NCBI GenBank assembly: GCA_016789405.1
Contig: JAEUPQ010000017.1
Coordinates: 1-64,000 of the forward strand
Length of the DNA: 64,000 bases
DNA from: Lysobacteraceae bacterium
GTDB taxonomy: Bacteria; Pseudomonadota; Gammaproteobacteria; Xanthomonadales; Xanthomonadaceae
Reading direction: 5' to 3'
In this document: positions 5,923 through 10,192 of the stretch, piece after piece
How positions within the stretch are numbered: position 1 is the stretch's first letter
Layout: each line of letters starts with the position of its first letter
Translations under genes and position numbers: made by a program
The notes under the pieces: generated by a model
Seen by the model: the letters and a program-made list of their open reading frames with translations, nothing else
What the model was told of the DNA's origin: nothing
The model's database searches: none

Positions 5923-7494
5923 CTACACCCTCGGACCTCTCGGCGATGGGTCATCCTGCGTGGGCGCGTTCTGCGTCAGGTTCTGCGCTTGCGACAACTG
6001 GATCTGCTGATTCAGTTGGCCGACGCCCTCGCTGCTCTTGACCAAGGGCTTTCCAACCAGTTCGCCGACGTTGCCTACAGCCGTCCGCGCCCACTCTGCG
6101 GACGGGTTCACGGTGTCGGTCATGCCGACGAGACGGCCATCCTCGAAAAATTTCGCGGAACCGATACTGGTCAAGCCGCGCGCGAGCGCCTGTTCGGTCA
6201 ATCCGCCCGCCAGCTGGCTGCTGAGCGAATCCGGCGTGCGTCCGAGTTCGCGGTCGCGTTCGTGGACGACCTTCAAGAGTGCCGAATACATGGCGTGGTT
6301 CGGATGTGCGGGACTGTCCAGAAGGATGGCTGCAGGTTGTGGATTGTCTCGTGCGGGCGCTGGTGCGTCATGATCGATCGTGCCTTGGGGTTCCTCGCGA
6401 GGCGGCATGGGATATCTGCCCGGAACCATGTAGTCCTGCTGGTCGATCTGGCGCGGTGGCGGGTCGATCTGCTGATACGTCCAGCCATTCGCAGTCAGCT
6501 GGCGATCCGTGCCGTCGGGCCCGCGCACCGTCAATTCGCCCTGCCTGTTGAGCTCCGTGCGCGAAATCTCTTCACGCGCAAGCGCATTGATGCCTTGAAT
6601 GACCACCGGTCTCGCTGCAGCCTGTTCATCGATGGTGGCGACAATACGCTCGCCTGCTGCGGGGTTTCGCATCATGGCGTCGAACAGCTGCACCGAAGGG
6701 TTGGTGTTGAAGCCCTGCGTCATTCCGACATTGCCATTGGCATGCACCTGCTCTCGCCACAAACGGCTCAGCTGTCCATCGCCAGTTTCCAGTTGGTTCA
6801 TCAGGCGGACGCCGGACAGTGCCGCGTCACGACCGGAAAGAATGGCTGCGGTCGCTGCGGTGTTCAGCCCGCGCACGCCTTGGTCACCTATCCAGGCATA
6901 GGTCTGGTCGGCGGTCATCTCCTGTTGTTGCTGCTGCAGATGGCGGAGCAATTGACCGCCGCGATTCTCGTTCTGGTTGAACAGCTTGCTGGTCAAGGTC
7001 ACGATTTCCGCAGCCTCTTGTGGATCACGAGCGCTCAGCCGCTGCAGCCAGGGGATTTCCGAGAGCGGTTCACCGACGTTCGTCCATTTCCGGTCGATCT
7101 GTTCACGGTTGAGGCTGTCCACGAACTCGCGTCCGGAGTCTGAGCGGAGGTACGCATTCATGCGCGACTGCTCGTCAGCCGTCAGCGCGTTGCCAACTTG
7201 TCCACGTGTCTGCAGGCGAGTGGATAGCGACTCGATTTCTTGTTCCGTGAATCGTTGGCTGGGTTGCGCCCATGCCTGATAGCCGTCGAGCATCGGTTCG
7301 ACCTTGTGCCCACGACTAGGCTGTCCGAAGTCCCATTGCACGACGCCTACGGACCAACCCGAATTGCCGGTGCTGTGCACAAGGCCATACGCCGGGTAAG
7401 TACCGACCTCGCTCGCCCTTCCGATCGCGTTATAGGCGATGGCCTCGTAAGTGCGGCGCTCCAACGGGTTGTAGACGTACACGGGTTCGGTCAT
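5923..7494 (-). CDS. Predicted X-T4SS effector, probable peptidoglycan hydrolase, with XVIPCD
   Basis: 523 residues, no signal peptide. Residues about 390-523 are a clear XVIPCD: ILLDSPAHPNHAMYSALLKV, LGRTPDSLSSQLAGGL, the aligned TSIGSAKFFEDGRLVG strand and a Gln-rich tail (QLNQQIQLSQAQ). The N-terminal region (residues about 1-330) has a lysozyme-like opening with AYNAIGRASEVGTYPAYGL and NSGWSVGVVQWDFGQ, and is mostly helical. Together with the LprI/DUF1311-type partner immediately upstream this points to a peptidoglycan-degrading toxin delivered to the periplasm of rival bacteria. The start codon overlaps the stop of the partner gene (ATGA), so the two are translationally coupled. The enzymatic class is inferred, not proven by recognisable catalytic residues. 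Confidence 0.8.
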   Translation of the reverse strand: MTEPVYVYNPLERRTYEAIAYNAIGRASEVGTYPAYGLVHSTGNSGWSVGVVQWDFGQPSRGHKVEPMLDGYQAWAQPSQRFTEQEIESLSTRLQTRGQVGNALTADEQSRMNAYLRSDSGREFVDSLNREQIDRKWTNVGEPLSEIPWLQRLSARDPQEAAEIVTLTSKLFNQNENRGGQLLRHLQQQQQEMTADQTYAWIGDQGVRGLNTAATAAILSGRDAALSGVRLMNQLETGDGQLSRLWREQVHANGNVGMTQGFNTNPSVQLFDAMMRNPAAGERIVATIDEQAAARPVVIQGINALAREEISRTELNRQGELTVRGPDGTDRQLTANGWTYQQIDPPPRQIDQQDYMVPGRYPMPPREEPQGTIDHDAPAPARDNPQPAAILLDSPAHPNHAMYSALLKVVHERDRELGRTPDSLSSQLAGGLTEQALARGLTSIGSAKFFEDGRLVGMTDTVNPSAEWARTAVGNVGELVGKPLVKSSEGVGQLNQQIQLSQAQNLTQNAPTQDDPSPRGPRV

Positions 7495-8072
7495 GGCTGT
7501 TCGCCTTCCATGCGCGCGGGGGCATAAAGCGTCGTCAGTTCATCGATCCGAGCCCGGGTCATCCGCACGCGGCATGCCTCGGCCAGATGTTCCGAAAGAT
7601 CGCGCGACATGCCCTGTGCGAAGGGTTCCAGGGAACATTGCGCTTCGCGGTATGCGTGCCACGCACGATTCGCCTCGCGCGCGGCGGCCTCCAGATCGTT
7701 CAGGTAGGCGGCATCGCCGTCGGCGTAGGAAGCATAGGCCTTTCGGGCAGAGGCGATTGACGACTGTTCGACCTCCGCAAGTTGCCGCTCCGCGAGATGC
7801 ATCTCGCGGTATGGCTTGCACCGCATGGGATGCGTGCGCTCGCAGTCGTCGATCGATGCCTGATCCTGCTTGCTGTAACAGACGCGCTTGTCGATCAGCG
7901 ACGCGAGGCCATCGCAGTCCTGTGGCGCGTCATTGGCAGGCGGCTGTGCCGGTTTCTGACTAGAGCCTGTGACGGCAATACGATGAGGCGAGTCGTTTCC
8001 GGCGCATCCTGACATCGGCGCCGCGAGTGCGAGCAGGAAGAGGGGAGTGCGAAGAAGCATTGGGCACGTCAT
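7491..8072 (-). CDS. LprI/DUF1311-type lipoprotein, putative lysozyme-inhibitor immunity protein
   Basis: 193 residues from the ATG preceded by AAGGGA. The signal peptide ends in the lipobox MSGC, so a lipid-anchored periplasmic protein is expected. The mature part has paired cysteines (CDGLASLIDKRVC, CERTHPMRC) and the long helix AYLNDLEAAAREANRAWHAY followed by REAQC and ending CRVRMTRARIDEL, which is the DUF1311/LprI arrangement. LprI-type proteins are known lysozyme inhibitors, and DUF1311 lipoproteins are recurrent immunity proteins beside X-T4SS peptidoglycan-hydrolase effectors. It overlaps the effector start by 4 bases. Role: to protect the producer's own cell wall. Confidence 0.8.
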   Translation of the reverse strand: MTCPMLLRTPLFLLALAAPMSGCAGNDSPHRIAVTGSSQKPAQPPANDAPQDCDGLASLIDKRVCYSKQDQASIDDCERTHPMRCKPYREMHLAERQLAEVEQSSIASARKAYASYADGDAAYLNDLEAAAREANRAWHAYREAQCSLEPFAQGMSRDLSEHLAEACRVRMTRARIDELTTLYAPARMEGEQP

Positions 8073-8250
8073 GGGCGATCCCTTGTTCGACAATACGTAT
8101 CCGTCCGGCTGTTCAGGAGGGATGTTCGGCGCGAGCGTGCATGGTAGCGCGCGCCCGGGAGGGCAGGGCGGGGCACGGCTCCTGTGCGTTCTGTCAGGTT
8201 GACCGTCCTCACATGCATGCGTAGAGTCGCTGGCGGTGCTCAACACACCT

Positions 8251-8401
8251 TACTAGGCGGTCGACCGCTCCCGAGAGTCTGGCGGTTTTTTTGCGTCCAG
8301 AGGTTCTGGATTGCCCGTGCTTTCGGGCGTCCGCAGCCTATGGCCGGGTGGCGCGCAGCCATACAACACCCGAAAGGGAAAATCTGCGGGCGGGCCTAGT
8401 A
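8251..8401 (+). ncRNA. Structured leader RNA resembling phage C4 antisense RNA
   Basis: A compact structured element upstream of the SymE-like gene. Visible helices are an 8-bp closing stem 8251-8258 with 8394-8401; ACCGC/GCGGT at 8264-8268/8282-8286 followed by seven T; TCCAGA/TCTGGA at 8296-8301/8305-8310; GCCCG/CGGGC at 8313-8317/8324-8328; CCGCAG/CTGCGG at 8331-8336/8384-8389 enclosing TATGGC/GCCATA (8339-8344/8358-8363) and a CCC-GAAA-GGG hairpin at 8369-8378. The sequence around the CCTATGGC and CCCGAAAGGG parts resembles C4 antisense RNA of P1/P4-type phages, from memory. GGCCGGGTG (8342-8350) is perfectly complementary to CACCCGGCC (8413-8421) in the following leader, as expected for a C4-type regulator. 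Structure is well supported; family name is tentative. Confidence 0.6.
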
Positions 8402-8420
8402 CCGTGTTGAAGCACCCGGC

Positions 8421-8466
8421 CGCCTCTCTCAACAGGAGGCGCAATTTGGTCAATCAACGAAACTAG
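8421..8466 (+). promoter_or_regulatory. Leader hairpin and 6-codon mini-ORF before the SymE-like gene
   Basis: CGCCTC (8421-8426) pairs with GAGGCG (8436-8441). A strong AGGAGG (8434-8439) sits 6 bases before TTG at 8446, opening a 6-codon frame (TTG GTC AAT CAA CGA AAC) whose TAG stop at 8464-8466 lies inside the ACTAGGA ribosome binding site of the SymE-like gene. This looks like a coupling leader peptide, comparable to the orf upstream of ant that C4 RNA controls in phage P1. Inference from layout. Confidence 0.4.
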
Positions 8467-8474
8467 GAATCGTC

Positions 8475-8690
8475 ATGACCGTACGCAAAGCAAAGCGCCG
8501 CAAAGAGCGGCGCATCACCGTCAGTTACATCTACCGCGACTACTACGACGACCGCTTCTGGACCGGGTCGCGGAAATTTCCCGTCCTGCGCTTCGGCGGC
8601 GAGTGGCTGGCGCAGGCCGGCTTCGCCGTCGGGCAGCACGTGCGCGTGCAGGTGGGCAGGAAGCGGATCGTAATCGAGCCGGCGACGTGA
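8475..8690 (+). CDS. SymE-family small protein, type I toxin-like
   Basis: 71 residues. A basic N-terminus (RKAKRRKERRITVSYIY) is followed by PVLRFGGEWLAQAGF and VGQHVRVQVGRKRIVIEPAT, the compact beta-strand signature of the SymE/AbrB-like fold. SymE of E. coli is an SOS-induced nucleic-acid-binding toxin whose translation is blocked by an antisense RNA. Here the ATG is 6 bases after AGGA (8465-8468), and the upstream structured RNA could be the controlling element. The length is shorter than E. coli SymE (113 residues), as in many proteobacterial homologues. Toxicity is not established from sequence. Confidence 0.7.
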   Translation: MTVRKAKRRKERRITVSYIYRDYYDDRFWTGSRKFPVLRFGGEWLAQAGFAVGQHVRVQVGRKRIVIEPAT

Positions 8691-8742
8691 GCGTGGCTGC
8701 CTGATCGGCGGCTTGCCGCGTGCGGATCATCGTTCCGTTCGC

Positions 8743-8822
8743 GGCGGGCCGAGCGCCCGCCCTACGTCAGTCATCGTGGTTCAAGCCCTCCTTACGAGTT
8801 CAAGCCCGCCTTACGCGTTCAA
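8743..8822. repeat. GC hairpin and 19-bp tandem direct repeats
   Basis: GGCGGGC/GCCCGCC (8743-8749/8755-8761) forms a REP-like hairpin. It is followed by two adjacent 19-bp units beginning GTTCAAGCCC (8779-8797 and 8798-8816, two differences) and a third partial unit running into the stop codon of the PIN-like gene. These may terminate both flanking genes or mark the edge of an inserted segment. Confidence 0.5.
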
Positions 8823-10192
8823 CTCATACAGCTTTGCGCGTTCAGATCTTCTCGGACATGGCATCCAAGGTGCTTGTATGTCTCACCTTCGACGTATCCC
8901 GCACAGAGGATGAGGCGGTTCGAAGGCCACGTTATGTCGCGAAGATACTCAAAGGCTGCCCTTGCTGTTTCAATATTCGTGCATACAAGTGTAACGCGCA
9001 CATCGAAATCGGTTGTTTCTTCTAAGAAATCAGAAAGAAGGGAGAAGCGAGATTCAAGGCGCTGATGTATCGATTCGTCGAGTCGCGACACGGAAATGAC
9101 TTCATATGCCCGAACAGTTCTTTCGCCTGACTTGACAAGAAAGTCGGGGATAAATTCTTCCTCTATAGTCTCTTGAGGTGTTAGTGATTCTCGCAACCAG
9201 GTCGCGAAAGCTAACTCAGAGATTATGCCAAATGATTGGTTTGTGTGTCTGACACTGGATCGCCTCGAAACATCCCTTGCTTCAGATACGCTTTCCGGTT
9301 TAATGCTTGCGCCAGCGAATTCATTCATTGCTTCGAGAAATGCATCAGGGGTGTAAATATGGAAGAAGCTGGTTCCGGCTTCACGCCGAATTTCCTCAAT
9401 AAGTTCCGGTCTCGCGCCGAGTCGTTTTGGGCCGCCTGACTCAATTATCCACCACCAGTCCGCTTTCACATCGTCAGTAACAAAGCAGATTGGTGCTTTC
9501 TTTAACTCTGAGGCGGCCCATGAAATTATTTGCTTCCATATATATAGGTCGCCGTATTTTGACTGATACTCCAAGCCTGCGTATGAAAATGCTTGTGCGC
9601 CTTTTTTGTCTTCTTTGGATGCGTCCAGATAGCCGGGCGGCTGCTCTCTGGAAAATCGAGCCGATCCCTCCTTGTCTAGGGAGATTATATCTGCCTGACT
9701 GCTCGGTGATGAGCCGATTCGTCCCGCGAAGAGCTCGACAATTTTTTCTCGAACAAAATCCCGCTCGTGAACGTCGCCAGTGATTTTTTCAAGTTCACTG
9801 AGCTCGTTGCAGAATTCATCGCTCAACTTCGTGAGGCTCTCTAGGAATTTCTGCATTTCAATATGCGAGTGACGGCGAAATACATCAACGCCGCTGAGCG
9901 AAGACTTTACAAGCTCAGGAAGACTGGACATTTTTTCTCTGACCTTCCTTATCGCGCTTCTCTTGCTGGAAATTACTGATAAGCGATTCCTTTCATATTC
10001 CAGTGCGACATGAAATGGAATCCACAGTCTCTCTTTCACTTTTTCCATGGCGAGCAAGACATCGCGCCGTGCCGGCTCTCTGTACCGGTAGAGGTTTAGG
10101 AGAACACTTGTGTCAAGAACAAAAAATCCTTCCTGCCAAAGGTGGGCAAGATCTTTTTTGCTCGGTTGCTCGAAGCCTGTTAGCAAAGCCAA
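8819..10192 (-). CDS. PIN-like (DUF4935/PIN_8-type) nuclease-domain protein
   Basis: 457 residues, cytosolic. The start is TTG at 10192, chosen because GAGGAGGGG lies 8 bases upstream and no ATG fits. The N-terminal third reads as a PIN-like nuclease domain: FVLDTSVLLNLYRY carries the first acidic residue, then WIPFHVALEYERNR, and later APICFVTDDVKADWW with a Thr-Asp-Asp acidic motif. A second region from about residue 310 (ISELAFATWLRES, then TVRAYEVISVSRL) could be a separate effector or sensor domain. Base composition is visibly more AT-rich than its neighbours and codon choice differs, a sign of horizontal acquisition. PIN_8-type proteins occur in defence islands, so an RNA- or DNA-cleaving defence role is plausible but unproven. 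Confidence 0.65.
   Translation of the reverse strand: MALLTGFEQPSKKDLAHLWQEGFFVLDTSVLLNLYRYREPARRDVLLAMEKVKERLWIPFHVALEYERNRLSVISSKRSAIRKVREKMSSLPELVKSSLSGVDVFRRHSHIEMQKFLESLTKLSDEFCNELSELEKITGDVHERDFVREKIVELFAGRIGSSPSSQADIISLDKEGSARFSREQPPGYLDASKEDKKGAQAFSYAGLEYQSKYGDLYIWKQIISWAASELKKAPICFVTDDVKADWWWIIESGGPKRLGARPELIEEIRREAGTSFFHIYTPDAFLEAMNEFAGASIKPESVSEARDVSRRSSVRHTNQSFGIISELAFATWLRESLTPQETIEEEFIPDFLVKSGERTVRAYEVISVSRLDESIHQRLESRFSLLSDFLEETTDFDVRVTLVCTNIETARAAFEYLRDITWPSNRLILCAGYVEGETYKHLGCHVREDLNAQSCMS

Follow-up and report, generated by a model that had tools for sequence, protein, structure and literature searches.

A 64,000-nucleotide stretch of a Lysobacteraceae bacterium genome (assembly GCA_016789405.1, contig JAEUPQ010000017.1; hereafter the window) carries, immediately upstream of a SymE-like gene, what is quite probably a C4-type antisense control unit for this toxin-like protein. 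This reading is based on how the unit is laid out and folded across the family and on its three-way covariation there, and it provides a new explanation for a known RNA, sRNA-Xcc1 (RF02221), and its known neighbour: the RNA would act as a C4-type antisense guard, following a phage-immunity logic common to antirepressors and a toxin-like gene. sRNA-Xcc1 is common in Xanthomonadaceae and has been discussed as a candidate virulence RNA in plant pathogens without a known mechanism; the match between its variable tag and the adjoining ribosome-binding site likely gives the family a job. An earlier note on this DNA had described here a C4-like structured RNA with antisense boxes controlling the gene. 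Its observation is confirmed and its interpretation is partly supported, the core being right and the details corrected. The core claim of C4/ant logic ahead of SymE appears, from sequence comparison, well supported by the three-way covarying boxes, the arrangement shared with C4 loci and the antirepressors found behind other members of the family; one box of that account was misidentified, the C4 model does not match, and the mini-ORF is not conserved.

All elements of the unit lie on the forward strand. A sigma-70-type promoter (TTGACC-N17-TAGAGT, 8199-8227) is the sole promoter-like site in 8000-8900, where shuffled sequences average 0.1, and the transcript is expected to start at a hairpin (GGTG-CTCAACA-CACC, 8235-8249) that displays box a1 (TCAACAC, 8240-8246). 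Box b1 (TACTAGG, 8251-8257), recognized by its covariation with b', is followed by a hairpin with an ACCGC/GCGGT stem and a T run (8264-8292), which is terminator-like and may function in the manner of IsrK. The sRNA-Xcc1 match itself extends over 8342-8429 (model positions 1-87; 82.3 bits against a gathering score of 53) and is the single strong Rfam match in 7500-9500, among eight matches at E<=10. It is closed by P1, a 9-bp stem between GGCCGGGTG (8342-8350) and CACCCGGCC (8413-8421), and folding of 8342-8429 adds P2 (8354-8358/8384-8388) and P3 (8391-8393/8402-8404), as well as the GAAA-loop hairpin CCCGAAAGGG (8369-8378) already pointed out in the earlier note. Box b' (CCTAGTA, 8395-8401) occupies the P3 loop and complements b1 and also, for 6 nt, b2; box a' (GTGTTGA, 8404-8410) sits after P3, ahead of the 3' strand of P1. 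Downstream, a hairpin with TCAACA in its loop (8422-8440) precedes box a2 (TCAAC, 8454-8458), with 5 nt of complementarity to a', and box b2 (ACTAGG, 8462-8467), identified through the comparison of own and foreign tags described below and located at the ribosome-binding site of a 71-aa SymE-like gene (8475-8690; PF08845, E 9.5e-14, 51.7 bits, cut-off 29). In the window, the antisense boxes thus pair over 7+7 nt with the upstream boxes and over 6+5 nt with the downstream ones. The source genome contains two RF02221 copies and two SymE genes, each SymE behind one copy.

This layout recasts several of the pairings first proposed. The 8-bp helix between TACTAGGC (8251-8258) and GCCTAGTA (8394-8401) is present in the sequence, but it had been taken for the closing helix of a 151-base element; it is really the b1/b' tag pairing, and P1 closes the sRNA. 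Likewise, the 9-bp complementarity now assigned to P1 is real, but its strands do not constitute an antisense box, since they form a stem in all 27 aligned copies; GGCCGGGTG was accordingly rejected as the second box, which is instead the TCAACAC/GTGTTGA/TCAAC triplet. The complementarity behind the proposed alternative pairing of CCTAGT (8395-8400) with ACTAGG just 5' of the symE start at 8475 is present, and this tag match recurs in the family. A mini-ORF ending on the same site also exists (TTG at 8446, six codons, stop inside ACTAGG), but it lacks conservation, a closed short ORF being found in 4 of 27 copies by the rule applied, and a conserved icd-like mini-ORF was rejected. Finally, although the pairings within the 151-base element exist, its extent has to be revised, for conservation spans from the promoter to the start codon. 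The unit conserved in relatives comprises the promoter, the a1 hairpin, b1, the T-run hairpin, the sRNA, a further hairpin, a2, b2 at the ribosome-binding site and the start codon, and exceeds the Rfam RF02221 model, which spans just the 87-position core.

Folding energy separates the element from shuffled sequences poorly, barely beating chance, with z values of -2.07 for 8251-8401, -0.95 for 8342-8429 and -1.70 for 8240-8480, the segment whose folding had been suggested as a check. The helices are nonetheless more than chance because they are supported by comparison across copies, and not by folding energy alone. This comparison used a MAFFT alignment of 27 copies, which leaves out eight copies without a recognized start and those with a differing a1 hairpin. 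P1, P2, P3 and the flanking hairpins are paired in 99.0% of cells, with eight pairs changed on both sides, and neither figure is reached by any of 500 shuffles; the number of further pair types in the fold, 19, does not stand out from shuffles (245/500). The T-run hairpin is 99.2% paired and the hairpin behind the sRNA 94.1%, each with two pairs showing two-sided changes, and the stem of the a1 hairpin is invariant, its consensus in relatives being GGTG-CT(C/G)AACA-CACC. A promoter site with at least 8 of 12 matches lies 7-8 nt 5' of this hairpin in 29 of 33 distinct upstream stretches from relatives, a count that has no shuffled baseline.

The search for covariation in homologues from relatives gave a strong result. 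The a1/a' and b1/b' helices are paired in 96.3% of cells and contain 54 two-sided cells (0/500 shuffles in both cases), with seven pairs changed on both sides (22/500 shuffles). Box a' pairs with a1 in all 27 copies, and the a boxes are nearly invariant, with two-sided changes in one of seven pairs as opposed to six of seven in the b boxes. Where the a box is altered, as in copies L083 and L084 from viral contigs and in four copies of the XAC4 type, its partner boxes are altered to match. An additional test of b1/b' relied on fixed anchors, and 19 of 80 copies lacking them were dropped before merging duplicates. It yielded 13 distinct combinations for the RNA type of the window, 97.8% paired against 61.6% when partners were re-dealt, and 24 for the XAC-type RNAs, XAC4 copies included, 95.2% paired against 60.9% (0/2000 for both).

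The b-tag thus occurs three times in the unit, and it is hypervariable between copies yet complementary within each of them. Examples of such triplets are CTCGAAG/CTTCGAG/CTCGAAG in locus L005, CTACTAG/CTAGTAG/CTACTAG in L006 and TGCAAAG/CTTTGCA/TGCAAAG in an Escherichia phage (L135), and each of ten copies examined from phages, plasmids and E. coli contains a 7-nt tag in triplicate. We compared each b' with the 24 nt 5' of the start codon, requiring a complement of at least 6 nt; seven copies had no recognized start. For 12 of the 14 distinct windows, own b' had its match in the own ribosome-binding site, compared with 10 of 182 foreign pairs (0/5000 permutations). With four XAC4 copies and the ten just mentioned added, the match was found in 22 of 24 windows and in 19 of 552 foreign pairs (0/10,000 permutations); the pooled windows are distinct, but L001/L068 and L057/L134 carry identical tags pairwise. 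The XAC4 copies alone match in four out of four cases, a result equalled, with only four copies, by 224 of 5000 permutations. The two failures in the pooled set are L068 and L003, the latter being the first copy, and hence the one kept, for its distinct window: its b' matches its own ribosome-binding site over 4 nt, and four copies with an identical b' window match over 8. Duplex energies concur, at -19.7 kcal/mol between the sRNA segment and its own leader and -14.9 kcal/mol with foreign leaders (0/5000; 16 distinct copies), with the own leader ranked first by 8 of the 16 copies. The case is weak for the window copy, whose own duplex reaches -14.3 kcal/mol, compared to -13.0 with the leader of the other symE of the genome, and five foreign leaders bind better. 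The b'/b2 helix also fails on the MAFFT alignment in the register of the window, where 57.5% of cells are paired and all 500 shuffles do equally well or better; sliding it by one column gives 67.3% pairing and 22 two-sided cells. We attribute this failure to misregister around the Shine-Dalgarno sequence, because the alignment-free tag tests are strong.

In C4 (RF01695; c4-a1b1, RF03163), as in the window unit, a1-b1, a hairpin with a T run and an RNA folded into P1, P2 and P3 are followed by a2-b2 at the ribosome-binding site, and both RNAs share a three-stem fold in which the P3 loop carries b' and a' separates P3 from the 3' strand of P1. Boxes a' and b' facing a1-b1 upstream and a2-b2 at the ribosome-binding site are found in the family and in the window, the alignment register of b'/b2 being contrary. 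Antirepressor genes, the kind whose translation C4 represses, are found behind other RF02221 copies, whereas the adjoining gene in the window is SymE. The window RNA also differs from C4 in its shorter P1 and different P2, and the base of P1 reads ATGGCGG in eight of ten C4 loci and ATGGCCGG in the window. The two families are not joined by their covariance models. The C4 model, with which the earlier note had suggested a scan, finds nothing at E<=10 in 7500-9500 and nothing at E<=5 in 11 other loci, and the sRNA-Xcc1 model finds nothing in the C4 loci of relatives; an Rfam match was obtained, by sRNA-Xcc1 instead of C4. Membership in Rfam C4 was therefore rejected and the RNA is best called C4-like. 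Given that neither model matches the members of the other, common descent is unproven, and the similarity in layout may reflect either remote descent or convergence. C4 itself matches in 11 of 99 related genomes at E<=0.01, nine of them above the cut-off, and the comparison set consisted of ten loci above the cut-off. All ten show isrK and c4-a1b1 matches 5' of C4, mostly below gathering scores (exceeded by isrK at L118 and L122, and by c4-a1b1 at L118 and L124), and, in a looser test, nine of them have a leader complement of at least 7 nt, the one without being L123. The order at locus L116, leaving out the spacers and the two bases that separate the boxes, is TTTGACAG, CACAAGG, CCTTGTG, CTGTCAA, TTGACAG and CACAAGGAG-ATG. 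A second C4-like family, c4-2 (RF02944), judged here by name alone, is named together with RF02221 in a table of PMC11701678 and has no match in 7500-9500.

By analogy with C4, transcription from a single promoter would yield an RNA comprising a1-b1, the terminator-like hairpin, sRNA-Xcc1 with b' and a', a2-b2 at the ribosome-binding site and symE. An sRNA-Xcc1 of about 88 nt would be excised from this transcript, probably by RNase P, and its b' and a' boxes would pair with b2 and a2, blocking ribosomes from starting on symE and thereby repressing a presumably toxic protein. The upstream a1-b1 copy may serve as a decoy that vies for b'/a', and on a short terminated RNA it could lift repression in an IsrK-like fashion. 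C4 is described as an RNA of about 77 nt that RNase P cleaves at the base of P1, with b' blocking the ribosome-binding site and a' providing specificity (PMC5320573), and the sRNA-Xcc1 reported in Xanthomonas campestris, about 100 nt long by Northern blot and 88 nt by RACE (PMC2996969), is compatible with an RNase P cut at the 5' base of P1 as in C4. The discrete species of about 88 nt observed in other organisms argues against an arrangement that we deem rather unlikely, an IsrK-type switch in which free antisense RNA would be irrelevant, b'/a' would sequester the ribosome-binding site in cis and a terminated a1-b1 RNA would activate in trans. IsrK of Salmonella Gifsy-1 has been demonstrated to act in a dual fashion, and it resembles the window layout in its short terminated RNA, read-through mRNA and alternative pairings, with a toxic outcome; it differs in its published target, orf45-anrP (PMC4825925). 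The order of a1-b1, hairpin and T run is also found in the window unit, with covariation, and the isrK model (RF01394) does respond at 8215-8292, but at 13.4 bits (E 8.4) against a gathering score of 50 the response is at noise level and membership in Rfam isrK was rejected; moreover, a terminator scan with a loop limit of 8 does not call the 8264-8292 hairpin.

The C4-type reading also has to be set against two others that dissociate the RNA from its neighbour. sRNA-Xcc1 could be a virulence sRNA that acts in trans on numerous distant targets, with symE an incidental neighbour, and the title of Chen 2011 reportedly announces positive control by HrpG and HrpX. Target prediction yielded a long list of genes (PMC2996969), and XAC-type RNAs mostly lack a matching site at the next gene. 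We nevertheless hold this to be very improbable, in view of the tag match at the next gene in 22 of 24 distinct windows, of the SymE gene directly behind 25 of 37 copies of the window's RNA type, near-identical copies included (it is absent behind 12, two of them truncated by contig ends), and of the antirepressors that the family also precedes. The notion of a DNA-level element, such as a recombination site or a mobile-element hairpin, draws on the report of the cassette in integrons (PMC12444791) and on copies located amid repeated integron-type motifs, with GTTAGGC/GCCTAAC occurring nine times in the 3-kb locus of L005. A crude motif count, as opposed to an attC search, finds no such motif in the 3-kb locus of the window copy, and the conserved promoter position, the covariation with the ribosome-binding site and the RNA expression seen elsewhere make this notion barely credible.

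RF02221 is found in 20 of 99 related genomes at E<=0.01. Among 395 genomes of the family, 149 carry it at E<=1e-4, copy numbers per genome being lower bounds since no more than 10 candidates were scored in each; 75 of the 395 carry SymE. Bro-N proteins lie behind RF02221-type units in Thauera, Pseudomonas putida and Delftia (E 5.7e-25 to 5.8e-16), the Thauera protein matching the PHROG anti-repressor Ant at 2.7e-50. A plasmid of P. aeruginosa has the RNA 5' of a BRO gene, and plasmids of Providencia and Arsenophonus have it 5' of Rha regulators. Escherichia phage PPwrbA_EC3734 has a unit before an ORF, and the same leader in E. coli AMSHJX01 precedes a gene annotated as 'phage antirepressor Ant'. 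Of 5426 complete E. coli genomes, 125 carry the RNA, at 141 places in all; among the matches listed, 34 of 40 are at antA/AntB, Ant, BRO or P22AR genes and six lie over no antirepressor-type gene, one of these having a BRO gene directly behind. With the window DNA as a blastn query no phage match was obtained at E<=1e-5; phage matches were found with copies from relatives as queries. At one E. coli locus (L138), two successive antA/AntB genes each lie behind their own RF02221 RNA (783-872 and 1323-1408), the two RNAs differing in subtype and tags; in the second, which is XAC-type, a2 and a near b2 seem, by eye, to be kept. A Thauera copy (L057, 382-469) and its antirepressor lie between CRISPR-DR4-like repeats (96-123, with an array from 2634) that score up to 34.5 bits, just below the gathering score of 35. 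Copies L060, L064 and L066, on two contigs of Pseudomonas putida 31753, share an identical promoter stretch and protein start, which suggests recent mobility.

In the main XAC-type class, the tag is found at the next ribosome-binding site in 1 of 27 copies (3406/5000 permutations), an approximate figure in that the automatic rule misassigned some start codons, as is visible from wrong-frame proteins. A start-codon-free test demanding a complement of at least 7 nt gave 40% for own, 32% for foreign and 16% for shuffled sequences. Within loci of about 3 kb or less, no a2-b2 pair was found 3' of XAC-type copies except at L099, L100, L103 and L104, and isolated single-box matches occur at L025, L040 and L044. 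The main class hence retains b1/b' without a copy at the ribosome-binding site, so this pairing must serve something else too; a structural or decoy role is the only explanation we can offer. The XAC-type copies among L007-L055, which lie mostly before XAC0095-like genes, show the covarying a1/b1-a'/b' helices and no tag at the next ribosome-binding site. Of the small genes that follow the main class, four were compared with NCBIfam: two belong to the XAC0095 family (84.3 and 67.9 bits, cut-off 34) and the other two fall just under the cut-off (30 and 32). Of the 39 main-class XAC-type copies, 7 have a SymE gene in the 1 kb that follows. At L099, L100, L103 and L104, a further small protein family lies behind the XAC-type RNA with all three tags intact; the proteins of the first three are alike and that of L104 is more distant, and the L099 protein has no Pfam match at E<=0.1.

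The association of the RNA with SymE has precedents. The symE/sRNA-Xcc1 pair is reported as the most widespread Xanthomonas integron cassette, present in 13 species, and a 'divergent regulatory mechanism' has been proposed for it (PMC12444791). The published cassette has the same RNA family before SymE in the same orientation (PMC12444791; PMC2996969), to which we add a1-b1, the boxes and the match to the ribosome-binding site; no integron-type motif is found near the window copy, in contrast to that cassette, and the integron integrase of the source genome is on another contig. The SymE/SymR type I toxin-antitoxin system of E. coli shares the toxin family, but SymR is encoded in cis opposite symE, whereas the window RNA is upstream on the same strand (PMC1891008); among described RNA families, no SymR match was found on either strand of 7500-9500 at E<=10. 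Expression is documented in other bacteria: in Xylella, transcripts of all seven sRNA-Xcc1 copies of one strain were detected and the RNA was found in vesicles, with C4 listed separately in another strain (PMC12189769); in EHEC, an 89-nt RNA had 40,293 transcriptome reads and a ribosome coverage of 0.02 (PMC5331693). C4 and sRNA-Xcc1 are also given as separate items in STEC (PMC12370729). In the open-access papers searched we found nothing joining sRNA-Xcc1 with antirepressor, in the hyphenless spelling, or C4 antisense with SymE, and no published account of a C4-type mechanism for sRNA-Xcc1; the identifier RF02221 appears in two of them.

Should sRNA-Xcc1 be C4-type, the tag in the adjoining ribosome-binding site would reveal its nearest target, the long lists of predicted targets would come into doubt, and the cassette reported as most widespread in Xanthomonas integrons would turn into a testable RNA-guarded SymE module. 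Rather speculatively, the hypervariable tag might constitute a self/non-self code, each module being immune to its own tag only, such that a cassette or phage entering a cell that lacks the matching RNA would switch on its SymE or antirepressor (zygotic induction) and loss of the module would kill the cell. Were this true, the system would represent a type of toxin-antitoxin whose antitoxin RNA is cut from the mRNA of the toxin itself, taken over from phage immunity and disseminated by integron cassettes.

The surroundings of the unit in the window include, on the reverse strand upstream, an XVIPCD-type X-Tfe protein (5923-7494; PF20410, E 6.4e-08) adjoined by a small LprI-like protein (7491-8072; PF07007, E 3.5e-07), a pair resembling a type IV secretion effector of Xanthomonadales and its immunity protein. 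Just downstream of symE, also on the reverse strand, lies a gene for a 457-aa protein with a PIN-like domain (8819-10192; PF18476, E 7.4e-55).
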